From positions 1 through 35,319 of the forward strand of contig CALFNN010000044.1 of the NCBI GenBank assembly GCA_937902925.1: a stretch of 35,319 nucleotides of DNA, in the 5' to 3' direction. Below are positions 18,697-27,073 of the stretch, piece after piece; the stretch's first letter is position 1; every line of letters begins with the position of its first letter. Position numbers and translations under genes: made by a program. Under the pieces are notes generated by a model. The model was given only the letters and a program-made list of their open reading frames with translations, made no database searches and was not told the DNA's origin. Source of the stretch: an uncultured Opitutaceae bacterium (GTDB taxonomy: Bacteria > Verrucomicrobiota > Verrucomicrobiia > Opitutales > Opitutaceae).

Positions 18697-18773
18697 TGGT
18701 GGACCTTACTGGACTCGAACCAGTGACCTTTTCCATGTCAAGGAAACGCTCTAACCAACTGAGCTAAAGGTCC
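18697..18773 (-). tRNA. tRNA-Val (anticodon GAC)
   Basis: The minus strand folds as a complete tRNA of 77 nt. The acceptor arms GGACCTT and AAGGTCC pair fully, with discriminator A and an encoded CCA. The D arm is GCTC/GAGC, the anticodon stem TTTCC/GGAAA with loop TTGACAT gives anticodon GAC (valine), and the T arm is ACTGG-TTCGAGT-CCAGT. It sits 37 bp after the ribF stop in the same direction with no obvious promoter between them, so it may be cotranscribed with ribF. Confidence 0.97.
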
Positions 18774-18810
18774 GAAAAACGGAGTCGGCGAGTAACGCCA
18801 GCGGGACACG

Positions 18811-19755
18811 TCAGCGCAAGGAAAAATCTGCGGTCGCCGTCTCGCGGTCGCGGGCGATCTGTGCGCGAAGTTCGTCGACGTTGCCAAACTTCATCTCGGG
18901 CCGCAGGAAACGCAGCCATTCGACCGTGATGGCGTCGCCGGCATCGAAGGGACATTCCCCGAGCACGTGGGTCTCGAGCCGGGGCTCGGTCGACTGCTCG
19001 ACCGTGGGCCGCAGCCCGTAGTTGGCGACGGCCGGCAGCGGCGCCGTCGCTTTCGCCCCGGACACGCGCGCCACATAGACCCCGAACCGCGGGCGCTGAC
19101 CCGGCGACCATGCGAGGTTGAGCGTCGGAAACCCGATGGTCCGGCCCAGGCGTTTGCCGGACGCCACGACGCCCTCGGCGAAATACGTGTAGCCGAGCAG
19201 CGCGTTGGCCGCCGCGATCTCGCCCGCCGCCAGCAGCCCGCGGATCCGCGTGCTGCTGATCGGCTCGCCGTCGAAGCTGATCCGCGGCGCGCTGAACAGG
19301 TCGAGACCGAGGCGGCGTGCCTCGGCCACCAGCAGGGCGACGTCCCCGCGGCGTCCGCGGCCAAACCGGAAATTCTCGCCGGCGTAGACCGCGGCGAGGT
19401 GCGGCAGCTTCTGCCCGAGCCACGGCAGAAAATCCTCCGCGGCGATCGCGGCAAATTCCCGGGTGAACGGCTGCGTGATCACCGCCTCGACTCCCAGTCG
19501 CAGCAGCAGTCGCGCCCTCGTGGCCCCGTCCAGGATAAGCGGCGTGGGATGCTCCGGGCGAAAGAGTGCGCTCGGATGCGGCCAGAAGGTCAGGACCGCC
19601 GCGATCCCGTCGCTGCGGCGCGCGGATTGCACCGCCGCCTCGACCACCGCGCGATGCCCCAGATGCACCCCGTCGAACATCCCGATTGCCAGGTGCAGCG
19701 GCCGGTCGGGGAGCGCGACGCGGTCCAGGCCGTCGAACTGGGCGGGCGGGTTCAC
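18811..19755 (-). CDS. ribF: Bifunctional riboflavin kinase/FAD synthetase RibF
   Basis: This 314-residue protein makes FMN and FAD. The N-terminal FAD synthetase half has [12 protein letters not shown] (nucleotidyltransferase motif), [27 protein letters not shown] and [15 protein letters not shown]. The C-terminal riboflavin kinase half has [35 protein letters not shown] and ETHVL. The start is GTG at 19755, overlapping the truB stop as GTGA; the frame is open far upstream but that part covers truB and nrnA. ribF next to truB at the end of a nusA-infB operon is a common arrangement. The tRNA-Val follows downstream. Confidence 0.95.
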
Positions 19756-20477
19756 AACGCAACACTCGGCACCGCGTCGCGCACGTGAATCAGGCGCTTC
19801 TCGATCTCCGGCAGCGACAGCGCCTGAATCTGGTCGAGCGTGAGCGCCTGCGCCACGTTGAACTTTTCCGTCGCCGTCCGCCGCAGCGCGGAGAGATGCG
19901 CTCCGCAGCCGAGTTTCTGGCCGAGGTCGTGCGCGAGCGTGCGCACGTAGGTGCCCTTCGTGCAGCGGAGCCGGAAATCGAGTTGGGGCGGCGCGAACCG
20001 CGTCAGCTCCCAGCTCATCACGCGGATGAAGCGGGGCTCGCGCACGATTTCCTCGCCCTTGCGCGCGCTCTTGTAGAGCGGCACCCCGTCGATCTTGATC
20101 GCGGAATACATCGGCGGCGTCTGGTATTGGTCGCCCAGGAAGGTCTTGATCGCCGCCAGCACGTCCGCCTCCGTCAGCGGCGGGACCGGGCGCGTTTCCA
20201 TCACCTCGCCGTCGGCGTCCTGCGTGTCGGTGACCCGGCCGAGCTCGATCGTGCCTTCGTATTCCTTGTCGAGGCTGATGAGAAATTGCGAGACGCGCGT
20301 CGCCTTGCCGACAAGGATGATCAACAACCCCGTCGCCATCGGGTCGAGCGTGCCGGCGTGCCCGATGCGTTTCATTTTCAACTTGCCGCGCAGACGGGCC
20401 ACGACGTCGTGCGAGGTGTGGTCGCGCGGCTTGTCCACGAGGAGGACGCCCTCGAGTTCCTTTGGTGGCTGCAACAT
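19752..20477 (-). CDS. truB: tRNA pseudouridine(55) synthase TruB
   Basis: This 241-residue enzyme converts U55 of the tRNA T loop to pseudouridine. Motif I is intact: [17 protein letters not shown], with catalytic Asp45. [42 protein letters not shown] and [30 protein letters not shown] are further TruB signatures. The protein is shorter than the E. coli enzyme (314 residues) and appears to lack a C-terminal PUA domain, as in other short TruB forms. The ATG at 20477 lies 3 bp after the nrnA stop; the stop overlaps the ribF GTG. Confidence 0.96.
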
Positions 20478-20480
20478 GGC

Positions 20481-21494
20481 TCAGCCTTTCCCCGCCGCGT
20501 CGACCGCGGCGATGCGCAACGCCAGCGCCGCGACCAGCCGCGCGTAGAAGTCCTCCCCGCCGCCCTTGAGATTCAACCCCGCCGCGCACGCATGGCCGCC
20601 GCCGTTGAACTGGCCCGCGATGAGGTCGACCCGATAGGCCGGATCCTTGGCCCGCAGGCTCGCCTTCACCGCCCCGCCCGGCCGCTCCTCGATCAACGCA
20701 CCGATGTCGACGCCGTCGATGCTCCGGGCGTAGTCGACCAGGCCCTCCGTGTCCTCGGCGCTTGTGCCCGTCTGTGCAAAGATGCCGTCGCTGAGCCGGC
20801 CGATGCACACCCGGCCGCCGCACTCGAGTTTCAACGAGGACAGGAAATGCTGCAGCAGGCGCAACTTGCCCTCGGACTCGCGCTCGTAGAGCTCGAAACC
20901 CGCCTCGGCGGGCTTCGCCCCGCGTGCCACCAACTCGCCCGCCAGCACGAAGCAGCGACGCGACGTGGAGTTGAAGCGAAACTGTCCCGTGTCGGTCAGG
21001 ATGCCCGCATAAAGCGCCTGGGCCGTCTGCGCATCCACCGGCAGCCCGTTGTCGAAAAAGATGCCGGCGAGGATCTCGCAGGTCGCCGCCGACGCACTGT
21101 CGACCAGGTTGGTGATCGCGAAGGCGACGTTCGACAAATGGTGATCGATCGCGGCGACCGGCGACGGGTAACGGGCCTTGAGCCGCTCGCCGCCCCGCGC
21201 ATGGTCGGCGCAGTCGACAAAAATCGCGACGCGATCGTCCGGCTGTTGCAGCACGTCGTCAGTGCGGATGAACCTCATCCCGGGCGCCAGGAATGCGAGA
21301 CGGCGCGGCACGGCGTCGGCGTTGACGCAGACGACATCGTGGCCGAGCGCGGCGAGCACGCGCGCCAACGCCACCTGCGAGCCGATGCAGTCGCCGTCCG
21401 GTCGCGCGTGGCCGACGACCGCGATCTTGCGGCGCGCAAGCGACGGGAGCAGGCGGGCGAACGCCGCGGAGAGTTCGGGATAGAATTTCTCCAT
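20481..21494 (-). CDS. nrnA: DHH family phosphoesterase (NrnA-like nanoRNase/PAP phosphatase)
   Basis: This 337-residue DHH-DHHA1 phosphoesterase resembles NrnA, which degrades very short RNA oligomers and dephosphorylates pAp. Metal-binding motifs are VGHARPDGDCIGSQ (I), FVDCADHARGG (II), AIDHHLSN (DHH, III) and LYAGILTDTGQFRFNST (IV). The C-terminal DHHA1 domain ends with GQFNGGGHACAAG. It lies between rbfA and truB, its usual position in many genomes. The ATG at 21494 is one base after the rbfA stop, and the stop is 3 bp before truB. The nrnA name is by family similarity. Confidence 0.9.
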   Translation of the reverse strand: MEKFYPELSAAFARLLPSLARRKIAVVGHARPDGDCIGSQVALARVLAALGHDVVCVNADAVPRRLAFLAPGMRFIRTDDVLQQPDDRVAIFVDCADHARGGERLKARYPSPVAAIDHHLSNVAFAITNLVDSASAATCEILAGIFFDNGLPVDAQTAQALYAGILTDTGQFRFNSTSRRCFVLAGELVARGAKPAEAGFELYERESEGKLRLLQHFLSSLKLECGGRVCIGRLSDGIFAQTGTSAEDTEGLVDYARSIDGVDIGALIEERPGGAVKASLRAKDPAYRVDLIAGQFNGGGHACAAGLNLKGGGEDFYARLVAALALRIAAVDAAGKG

Positions 21495-24503: not shown

Positions 24504-25736
24504 CTAGGACTTCGCGCCGGCAACCCGGCCGATGATGTCGGCGGCTTCCTCGGCGGTGAAGCCGGCGCCGACGAGGTCGTCGCCCTCGACGCCCTCGAAA
24601 AGTTCGAGCGAGACAAAGCCGGCTTTGACGAGGCGCAGCGCCGTCTCGTCGGACAGGCCCAGCGCCGCGACGAGCTTGCGCTTGGCGTCGCCCTCGGGAT
24701 CGGCGCCGACCGCTTTGAATTCCTCGATGTCGAGGCGCCAGCCGATGAGGCGCGAGGTGAGGCGCGCGTTCTGGCCCTTGCGGCCGATCGCAACCGCAAG
24801 GTCGTCGGTGGCCACCTTCAGGAGGATGCGGTGGGTCTTGTCGTCGAGCGTGATCTCGCGCGGCACGGCCGGCTTGAGCGCCTCGATGATCATCTCCCGC
24901 GGGTCGGCGTAATACTTGATGATGTCGATTTTCTCGCCGTTGAGCTCGCGGACGATCGTCTTCACGCGAGCCCCGCGGGCGCCAACGCACGCGCCGACGG
25001 GATCGACCTTCGGGTCGCTGCTCGTCACGGCGATTTTGGTGCGGTAACCGGGCTCGCGGGCGAAGGCCTCGATCTTCACCGTGCCGTCGGCGACCTCGGT
25101 CACCTCGAGTTCAAACAGGCGGCGGACAAATTTCGGGCTGGCGCGGGTGAGGATGATCTCGGGACCGCGCGGCGTGCTCTCGATTTCCAACAGGAGGCAG
25201 CGGATGCGCTCGCCCGGCTGGTATTCCTCGCCGGGGACCTGCTCCTTGCCTGGCATGACCGCCTCGGCCTTGCCGAGGTCGACGTAAAGGTCGTTGCGCT
25301 CGCGGCGGCGGACGGTGCCGGTGACGATGTTGCCCACCTGATCCTTGAAGTCGTCGTAAATGCGGTCCTTTTCGAACTGCCGCAGGCGCTGCATCACGGC
25401 CTGGCGGGCGGTCTGCGCGGCGATGCGGCCGAGGGTCGACGGATCGATTTCCTTCTCGATCATCTCGCCGATCACGGCGCCCGGCTTCACCAACTGGGCC
25501 TTCTCGATGTGAATCTCGGTCTTGGGGTTGCTGATCGAGTCGACCACCTTCATCACCGCCCAAGCGTGCAGCTGGCCGTTCTTGGGATTGATGTCGATCT
25601 TCAGCTCCTGGCCCGAATTCACGCCCTTCTGCGCGGCAGTCTTCAGGGCGTTCGAAATCGTCGCGATCATGTCGGATCGCGGGATGCCCTTCTCCTTCTC
25701 CATGTATTCCAGGACGGAAAGAATTTCGCTGCTCAT
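24504..25736 (-). CDS. nusA: Transcription termination/antitermination protein NusA
   Basis: This 410-residue NusA has the N-terminal RNA-polymerase-binding domain (about 1-130), an S1 domain (about 135-200, [28 protein letters not shown]), two KH domains (about 200-345; [30 protein letters not shown] and [13 protein letters not shown] are diagnostic) and a short C-terminal helix-hairpin-helix repeat. It modulates pausing, intrinsic termination and antitermination. The upstream leader contains a promoter-like pair and, 17-48 bp before the ATG, a terminator-like hairpin, described separately. No Shine-Dalgarno sequence is visible before ATG 25736. The usual upstream neighbour rimP is absent here. 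Confidence 0.96.
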
Positions 25737-25753
25737 AAGGTTGGCTAAATGGG

Positions 25754-25785
25754 AAAAAAAAAGCGGGCCGCAGGGCCCACTTTTT
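25754..25785 (-). terminator. Terminator-like hairpin in the nusA leader
   Basis: On the minus strand a 12-bp stem (AAAAAGTGGGCC with GGCCCGCTTTTT, one G-U pair, loop CTGC) runs into a stretch of nine T residues and ends 17 bp before the nusA ATG. On the plus strand the U-run is shorter and the stem has a C-A mismatch. It may end transcripts from the upstream DUF2851 gene, but it also lies downstream of the best nusA promoter candidate, so nusA transcripts probably have to pass it. That makes an attenuator plausible. Confidence 0.75.
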
Positions 25786-25795
25786 GGAAAGTGAG
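25776..25795 (-). promoter_or_regulatory. Alternative stem overlapping the nusA leader terminator
   Basis: On the minus strand CTCACTTT (25795-25788) can pair with AAAGTGGG (25783-25776) around the loop CCAA, giving 8 pairs including one G-U. The second arm is part of the left arm of the terminator stem, so the two structures exclude each other. This is the layout expected of an antiterminator, but the terminator stem looks more stable and no ligand or protein site is apparent. Confidence 0.45.
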
Positions 25796-25811
25796 TTTGA
25801 TTGAGTCGGTA

Positions 25812-25841
25812 AACCTACCGTGTCGACGGATTTCTTGTCAA
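25812..25841 (-). promoter_or_regulatory. nusA: Candidate sigma70-type promoter for nusA operon
   Basis: On the minus strand a perfect TTGACA (25841-25836) is followed 18 bases later by TAGGTT (25817-25812), a fair -10 match. Transcription would begin near 25805, giving a leader of about 70 nt before nusA that contains the terminator-like hairpin. It lies just after the DUF2851 stop. No other good promoter is seen between the hairpin and nusA, where only 17 bp remain. Confidence 0.6.
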
Positions 25842-25861: not shown

Positions 25862-27073
25862 TCACCGGCGGGCATCGTGTTCCAGCAGCCAGCCCAGAAG
25901 TCCCTGCGCCAGTCCGTGGTTCATCGGCACGGCGCGGCGGTCGACCACCCCGAGGGCACGCAAACTACGCCCCAGTCCCGGCGGCAGGTCACCCGGATAC
26001 CAGTGAAACCAGAGCCCTGAAATTTCGGGCGCACCTTCCGTTCGCGCGGCAAGCAACGGCAAAAAACCGTCGCACACGAGATTGTCGAGGCGCGTGCCGC
26101 CAACCGCACCGCCACAAAGCCGGCCAAATTGCTGGCGAAGACCGGCGATCCGATGAACCCGGCGCGCCAGCCCGGTCGTGGCCTCCGCTGATGCCTGGGG
26201 TAACCGCGCGCCCAGCGCCGCCAGCTGCTGCGTCCAATCCGGTTCGGCACGGACCCAGCCGGCGTATTGGCGCAGGCGGACTCGGGGGCGATTCGCCGGG
26301 CGGACCCCTTGCAGGCTCCACGCGCCGTGCTCGGCCGCGACCGCATGGTCGACGTCCACCCTGCCCTCCTTCCACGCTGCGAGCGGCGAGCGCGCCGCCA
26401 CCCGGAGCATCGGCCCGCGGTTGAACCGGTAACCGAGAATTTCCAGCGCTGCGTGATGACAGGCGGCGTCCCAACCAAGCCGGCGCAGCCGCAGCCGCGC
26501 GAAATGGACTTTCTGCCGCCAGCGCATCGCCGCTTGCGCGTGCAACAATGCCGTCAACTCGTCCGGCCCGAGCGCGACCAGTTCTTCCGGCACCCGCAGC
26601 GCGGTCGCGCGACCCGCGAGTGTCTCCACCGCCTCGTCAGCCGCGAATTCCTCGAGGTCGTGCAAGAGCAGCGGCAGGAGCACGAGCACCGGAATCTCCC
26701 GATCGCCCGCACCGCGCGTGCGCTGGCCCGGCTCGGGGGGAAACAGCACCACGTGCAACACGACGCCGTCGTAGGCCGGATCGCGCGCGTGCGCGTGCGC
26801 CGCCCAATCGGTTGCGTGCAAGTGGAGTTCCACGTCACCGGTGATTTCCGGGCCGTCGCCCCAGCGCAGCCGCGCCCCGCGAAAATCCGGGCCGCCCAGC
26901 AGATTCCACTTCCCCGGCGCAATCACCCGCACCCGCCGGCCGTCGAGGGCGGTCGCGGCGTCGCGATCGAAGTCGCCGCGCAGCCAGATTTTCTGGAGCA
27001 GTTTTTCCGGAAACGAAAACGGTCCGTATAGGCCCTGAAGCTCCGCGACGGTGCTAGCGGTCACTTTCGTCAT
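25862..27073 (-). CDS. DUF2851 family protein
   Basis: This 403-residue soluble protein belongs to DUF2851, whose function is unknown. Recognisable parts are the N-terminal GPFSFPEKLLQKIWLRGDFD, RVRVIAPGKWNLLGGPDFRGARLRWGDG, and VELHLHATDWAAHAHARDPAYDGVVLHVVLF, where the conserved histidines and Asp could bind metal. The middle has WRQKVHFARLRLRRLGWDAACHHAALEILGYRFN. The protein is encoded on the same strand as nusA and ends about 125 bp upstream of it; the nusA promoter and leader hairpin lie between, so it is probably a separate unit. ATG 27073 is a clear start. The shared gap with the divergent binding-protein gene (104 bp) shows no convincing promoter. Confidence 0.85.
   Translation of the reverse strand: MTKVTASTVAELQGLYGPFSFPEKLLQKIWLRGDFDRDAATALDGRRVRVIAPGKWNLLGGPDFRGARLRWGDGPEITGDVELHLHATDWAAHAHARDPAYDGVVLHVVLFPPEPGQRTRGAGDREIPVLVLLPLLLHDLEEFAADEAVETLAGRATALRVPEELVALGPDELTALLHAQAAMRWRQKVHFARLRLRRLGWDAACHHAALEILGYRFNRGPMLRVAARSPLAAWKEGRVDVDHAVAAEHGAWSLQGVRPANRPRVRLRQYAGWVRAEPDWTQQLAALGARLPQASAEATTGLARRVHRIAGLRQQFGRLCGGAVGGTRLDNLVCDGFLPLLAARTEGAPEISGLWFHWYPGDLPPGLGRSLRALGVVDRRAVPMNHGLAQGLLGWLLEHDARR

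Follow-up and report, generated by a model that had tools for sequence, protein, structure and literature searches.

A predicted rimP-leader-type attenuator placed directly before nusA in an Opitutaceae genome

The nusA operon and its leader

The window analyzed here is the whole stretch of 35,319 nucleotides, a contig of a 6.0-Mb genome from an uncultured Opitutaceae bacterium. By profile search, its minus strand carries nusA, infB, rbfA, a DHH-family gene with an NrnA match below the cut-off, truB, and a frame in which riboflavin kinase and FAD synthetase domains are recognized. The nusA product scores 387.7 bits against TIGR01953 (NusA; cut-off 253.4) and is 92 to 94% identical, over the best segment, to the NusA of the three top named contigs, all from Opitutae/Opitutaceae metagenome genomes. 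On the same strand 5' of nusA, a DUF2851 gene (25862–27073, minus strand) ends at 25862 and matches only the first 212 of the 375 profile positions. At the far end of the gene group the ribF domains begin at residue 375 of a 670-aa frame (18811–20823, minus strand) whose listed start overlaps truB, and the true ribF start probably lies further downstream than that listed start; a 333-aa ORF at 18764–19765 has no Pfam match. Directly 3' of the nusA-ribF group is a tRNA gene (18700–18773, minus strand), which is the sole Rfam match at the gathering score in the whole window. The short interval between the DUF2851 gene and nusA holds the leader, whose elements are as follows.

25836–25841, minus strand: -35 element TTGACA (from the sequence)
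25812–25817, minus strand: weak -10 element TAGGTT, after an 18-bp spacer following the -35 element (from the sequence)
25803–25808, minus strand: predicted transcription start region (placed by its spacing to the -10 element only)
25788–25795, minus strand: left arm of the alternative stem, CUCACUUU, outside the terminator, with conserved UCACUUU
25776–25783, minus strand: right arm of the alternative stem, AAAGUGGG, shared with the terminator left arm
25774–25785, minus strand: terminator left arm, AAAAAGUGGGCC (fold of -18.5 kcal/mol; covariation in the alignment)
25758–25769, minus strand: terminator right arm, GGCCCGCUUUUU (fold; covariation in the alignment)
25754–25762, minus strand: run of nine U, the first five also paired in the stem (from the sequence)
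25737–25753, minus strand: 17 nt from the U-run to the start codon (from the sequence and the alignment of relatives)
24504–25736, minus strand: nusA, 410 aa, with NusA_N, S1 and KH domains (PF08529, PF13184, PF00575)

The intrinsic terminator (25785–25758, minus strand) consists of a 12-bp stem with one U.G pair, a 4-nt loop and an uninterrupted U9, after which 17 nt remain to the ATG at 25736. Its folding energy of -18.5 kcal/mol corresponds to z = -3.67 for a 34-nt and -4.27 for a 51-nt piece against dinucleotide shuffles. The alternative stem has 8 bp, a CCAA loop and an energy of -6.4 kcal/mol on its own, and because its right arm lies wholly within the terminator left arm, the two stems are mutually exclusive. 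The preliminary description of this DNA had named these parts, namely a TTGACA/TAGGTT pair with 18-bp spacing, a 12-bp stem with a U-run 17 bp before the nusA ATG and an 8-bp stem exclusive of the terminator, and all of them are present in the sequence. The -10 element is weak: TAGGTT (25817–25812) shares three of its six letters with TATAAT. From the spacing, we predict transcription to start at about 25805 (+/-3), which would place the end of the U-run approximately 52 nt and the ATG approximately 69 nt downstream. A consensus promoter scan listed none at the nusA leader, and a simple terminator scan listed a plus-strand version at 25765–25778 instead of the minus-strand terminator. No Shine–Dalgarno-like sequence was seen by eye in 25737–25753.

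Conservation of the promoter and terminator

Upstream regions of nusA were collected from the best 80 of 562 named contigs and from further genomes. Among 57 relatives, 53 had a nusA match and 50 leaders were read (30 + 20 loci), leaving out two with incomplete nusA (G035, G049) and one whose sole match was a weak S1-domain match (G027). A sample of the phylum (145 genomes, of which 141 had a match) contributed 44 extra non-redundant loci outside the order, mostly better matches and a non-random set. Removal of redundancy (identical last 90 nt) reduced 190 loci to 179. We use ‘Opitutales-like’ for loci L002–L058 and L082–L165 minus rRNA loci; some of these are close relatives, hence counts do not represent independent events. 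Within them, 66 ‘Opitutaceae-type’ leaders were chosen for the string GTGGGCC, which is therefore invariant by construction.

With limits of -10 kcal/mol for the folding energy and 150 nt for the distance from nusA, a terminator is present in 108 of 112 Opitutales-like loci (dinucleotide shuffles 8/1120), in 34 of 44 other Verrucomicrobiota loci (2/440) and in 10 of 14 further named outgroup contigs (10/140); none of 9 Firmicute-type and other contigs has one within that distance. The exceptions in the phylum, with the terminator absent or weaker, are L055, L139, L141, L146 and ten of the 44 other Verrucomicrobiota loci. Where there is a terminator, its left arm contains G[UC]GGG in 103/108 Opitutales-like and 30/34 other Verrucomicrobiota loci, and the longest U-run has a median of 9 in the 66 Opitutaceae-type loci. 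Across 79 aligned leaders, 92.7% of terminator cells are paired and six of the twelve pairs have changed on both sides, a level of covariation reached by none of 500 shuffles.

The promoter is conserved along with it. Of the 110 Opitutales-like loci that have any terminator, 101 carry TTGACA 30–80 nt 5' of it, against 80 of 11,000 mononucleotide shuffles, and 25 of 34 other Verrucomicrobiota loci have TTGAC upstream of theirs. All 66 Opitutaceae-type leaders carry TTGACA, and their -10 columns read T 57, A 57, N, N, T 54, T 53. The most conserved blocks in these leaders are TTGACA, the -10 element, the outside arm UCACUUU and the terminator, and the stretch from the U-run to the ATG is mostly poorly conserved. 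The earlier claim that nusA transcripts from this promoter have to read through the terminator thus agrees with what is seen in relatives, given that the terminator stands between promoter and ATG and is conserved beyond chance.

Searched with a covariance model of the leader at E up to 1, the window's own genome gave a single match, which lies at nusA. The model also matched 51 of 57 relatives, with the best match beside nusA in 45 of the 51 (places compared by hand). In G037, G046, G048 and G051 the best match lies away from nusA, and for G026 and G030 there is no nusA match to compare with. Since many of these leaders served to train the model, matches at nusA are expected; what is informative is that strong matches elsewhere are few. 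One genome has a second, weaker match away from nusA (G018:C3:52619-52675, E 1.7e-4). No curated Rfam family matches the leader at the gathering score, and at E up to 10 the eight weak matches do not include a rimP family.

We considered whether the hairpin simply ends transcription of the upstream neighbor. The same-direction upstream gene is DUF2851 in 34 of the 58 named loci (L002–L059), as it is in the window. On the opposite strand, twelve upstream ORFs were located and ten scanned, of which eight have substantial Pfam domains: GDPD, QueC (two), EF-P, Iso_dh (three) and ABC. In these eight relatives the neighbor is divergent, so the terminator acts only on transcription towards nusA, which rules out an upstream-gene terminator there. 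The remaining two divergent ORFs, with an N_methyl motif only (L007) and no Pfam match (L036), are from Opitutaceae-type loci, and all eight Pfam-supported cases lie outside the 66 Opitutaceae-type leaders; for that type, the argument rests on the shared promoter and the short distance.

A related possibility is that the terminator is constitutive and unregulated, serving only to damp expression of the operon or to protect nusA from stray transcripts that arrive from upstream, while the outside arm has a role in initiation or some other purpose. Its strength (-18.5 kcal/mol, U9) and the frequent same-strand DUF2851 gene would suit such a role, but the conserved promoter upstream with no room for another downstream and the divergent neighbors in some relatives do not, and neither does an outside arm that, in the Opitutaceae type, is conserved and pairs better than shuffled segments. 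Nor would an unregulated block be expected to persist phylum-wide, and we regard this explanation as unlikely.

A competing stem in Opitutaceae-type leaders

Taken alone, the window's leader (L082) has an alternative stem close to chance level (p = 0.04 when the 5' segment is shuffled), and a 40-nt piece ending before the complete terminator has z = -1.71, with 11 of 200 shuffles folding as well. Support for the stem therefore comes from its conservation in relatives. The outside arm UCACUUU is nearly invariant in the 66 Opitutaceae-type leaders (U 55, C 66, A 59, C 65, U 61, U 57, U 59), and since it is dispensable for the terminator, its conservation favors a second function. The stem is also more stable than expected: native Opitutaceae-type leaders average -5.84 kcal/mol compared with -3.01 kcal/mol after shuffling of the 5' segment, with 38 of 43 beating their own shuffle mean (p 1.3e-9), and the same test on 18 more distant representatives gives 15 of 18 better (p 0.0012). 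Among other Opitutales-like loci the stem does not outperform shuffles, with 15/31 and 19/37 better than their own shuffle mean (p 0.13 and 0.14).

We further used a swap test, in which 5' segments are exchanged between loci and native pairing is compared with swapped pairing. Native pairing is better in 48 Opitutales-like representatives (p 0.0008) and in 22 representatives (p 0.003), compared with p 0.09 to 0.39 for three control segments. Outside the Opitutaceae type, native segments beat swapped partners in 31 representatives (p 0.001), and nine very distant representatives give p 0.059. Over 50 random representative sets the median p is 0.021, with 37 sets below 0.05. Within the Opitutaceae type (GTGGGCC subset, 18 representatives, p 0.33) the test is uninformative because both arms barely vary.

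In a fixed register, the alternative stem has no excess covariation. Covariation in both stems had been put forward as support for a switch; it is clear for the terminator, with the 6/12 pairs and 0/500 shuffles given above, and not in excess for its partner in this register. In one locus (L022), UUUUCAG together with CUGAAGG replaces the UCACUUU arm and the pairing is kept at -7.3 kcal/mol; the sequence of L025 resembles this arm and is weak in the scan (-2.6). Hence, our claim of a second stem is confined to the Opitutaceae type, and outside that group the support is mixed. A correlation between U-run and alternative-stem strength, in the sense of a trade-off, was also considered (rho -0.38 over all loci) and was rejected. 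It vanishes without the Opitutaceae-type loci (rho -0.03, p 0.82), so it reflects one between-group contrast and gives no independent support.

Mechanism, signal and relation to known leaders

Folding of the growing RNA, with the last 10 nt hidden in the polymerase and lengths counted from 25808, gives the 8-bp hairpin as the best fold at lengths 44–52 and the terminator from 56; at 54, a shortened 8-bp hairpin coexists with the terminator top. The U-run is transcribed at RNA lengths 47–55, so that the early hairpin would be in the way when termination is decided. Our preferred reading, to which we assign a probability of roughly 60%, is that the leader is a compact attenuator that meters polymerase into the nusA-infB-rbfA-nrnA-truB-ribF operon, most likely by NusA feedback. 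Transcription would start approximately 52 nt before the end of the strong intrinsic terminator, and the 8-bp hairpin would form first on the emerging RNA, occupying the terminator left arm. The full terminator could then complete only by displacing this hairpin with the polymerase in or near the U-run, and because of this requirement the dwell time of the polymerase would set termination. High NusA would slow the polymerase, favor the terminator hairpin and stop transcription, and low NusA would let the polymerase escape into the operon. This kinetic competition between the stems is an inference, as are the start site and NusA as the signal.

A tentative and more specific version is that, in Opitutaceae, the nusA-operon terminator has been rebuilt into a kinetic switch of about 52 nt, in which the early antiterminator restrains the U9 terminator and reads NusA-dependent dwell without a ligand-binding domain. 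If true, this very short attenuator with two states would have the termination machinery itself as the thing it senses.

The choice of NusA as the signal draws on precedent in Bacillus subtilis and Escherichia coli, and on the fact that RimP was not found. A search for RimP_N was positive in 0/57 relatives and 0/145 phylum genomes, two overlapping samples, and in 10 of 14 control genomes; in sampled Verrucomicrobiota, RimP may have been lost, and not merely have diverged past the profile. RimP is disfavored as the signal in these genomes, which keep the leader on nusA without a detectable RimP. The leader sequence has no feature that points specifically to NusA over another factor, and a strong terminator with a perfect U9 might not need NusA. 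The same anatomy could respond to another signal, such as IF2, RbfA, the NusG/Rho state, polymerase speed, nucleotide supply or hairpin-melting RNA chaperones of the cold-shock response. The anatomical evidence fits this equally, and translation factors are among the products of the operon. A proposal of cold-shock antitermination exists for the E. coli operon, although PMC6511841 argues against it. Since the precedents name NusA (PMC12288461 and PMC2965389), we consider a different signal the less probable of the two.

Antitermination of the kind used in rrn operons was weighed as well: the leader would then combine a boxA site, bound by NusB/S10, with a terminator. Autoregulation of other Nus genes through boxA has been described (PMC5725501), two leaders (L002, L084) carry CTCTTTAACAA, and the E. 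coli consensus GYTCTTTAANA is found within one mismatch in 4 of 66 leaders, where 0.1 are expected; the mean best match over the 66 is 7.35 of 11, against 6.70 in shuffles. However, the Opitutales rrn boxA TCTTTGAAA is not matched to within one mismatch by any of the 66 (0.2 expected), the core TCTTTRA occurs within one mismatch in 9 leaders against 6.9 expected, and the window's own leader has no match by eye. We therefore rejected boxA as a general explanation, which we judge very improbable. The single-stranded 5' part does look boxA-like in L002, L084 and L014, and in a few leaders (the 4/66 that fit the E. coli consensus) boxA may be real. No resemblance to a mycobacterial NusA KH site is claimed here.

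As an observation on the rrn operons themselves, the leaders L112, L117, L119, L124, L125, L129 and L132 have a boxA-like block around TTCTTTGAAA or CTCTTTGAAA, followed by GTGCGATTG or a close variant. These are seven distinct cases among 21 loci scanned, the others being without a 16S start on the strand read; the 16S searches behind them gave loci in 3/57 and 18/57 genomes, and none in the window's own genome.

In most Firmicute-type loci the corresponding hairpin sits further from nusA. With L072 left out, a hairpin with a GUGGG left arm lies 448–714 nt 5' of nusA in seven of eight such loci, a gap that rimP presumably fills, as in the known gene order. In the eighth, the clostridial L078, a AGAGUGGG hairpin lies 52 nt from nusA, and in L062 (Erginobacter) it lies at 80 nt; by sequence, this suggests that nusA-first versions of the leader also exist outside Verrucomicrobiota.

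As for earlier descriptions of the leader in Verrucomicrobiota, no title or abstract among the open-access matches listed describes it, although the species list of PMC2965389 may include members of the phylum, and the available parts of PMC8060035 and PMC12691694 hold no statement on a nusA leader.

Several known systems resemble the leader. Boxes of the boxA kind mediate Nus factor autoregulation (PMC5725501), which likewise works through leader RNA of Nus genes; unlike there, the leader here is without the boxA consensus. The E. coli metY-rimP-nusA-infB operon (PMC6511841) also has leader terminators, t1 and t2 upstream of rimP, and reported NusA self-regulation, but its leader is longer, with several promoters, RNase III sites and a tRNA gene. 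According to a review (PMC12288461) that cites Mondal 2016, B. subtilis NusA controls its own expression by stimulating termination within its 5' leader. Attenuation in the operon leader is common to both, and a terminator in the nusA leader behind a promoter is present here by sequence, with a predicted start (TTGACA in 101/110 Opitutales-like loci); in contrast, the B. subtilis operon begins with rimP (ylxS), and for the leader here a dependence on NusA is a prediction.

The closest relative is the rimP-leader of Naville and Gautheret 2010 (PMC2965389), described there as the most ubiquitous transcription attenuator: a GGGc...gCCC terminator stem and a U-stretch before rimP-nusA-infB, in a general form without a visible antiterminator. 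NusA is named as the best candidate regulator, and whether the signal is RimP or NusA is left open. The window's leader has the same GGGc...gCCC stem (AAAAAGUGGGCC/GGCCCGCUUUUU) with U9 just before the first gene of a nusA-infB operon, 17 nt before nusA and hence inside the reported 4–130 nt, with rimP not found. It differs in that it sits directly on nusA, in that its U9 is uninterrupted and in that an alternative 8-bp stem, whose outside arm is conserved in the Opitutaceae type, overlaps the left arm; the absence of an antiterminator is a reported property of the rimP-leader and not a requirement. By its sequence, we take the nusA leader to be the known rimP-leader attenuator type, placed directly on nusA where rimP is undetectable. 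The preliminary description of a leader attenuator before nusA holds for the conserved terminator and its exclusive partner stem, but it missed this kinship with a widespread type. What is new relative to the known rimP-leader is the competing stem, and this overlapping, conserved element is a small and easily mutated test piece for how NusA may set its own level.
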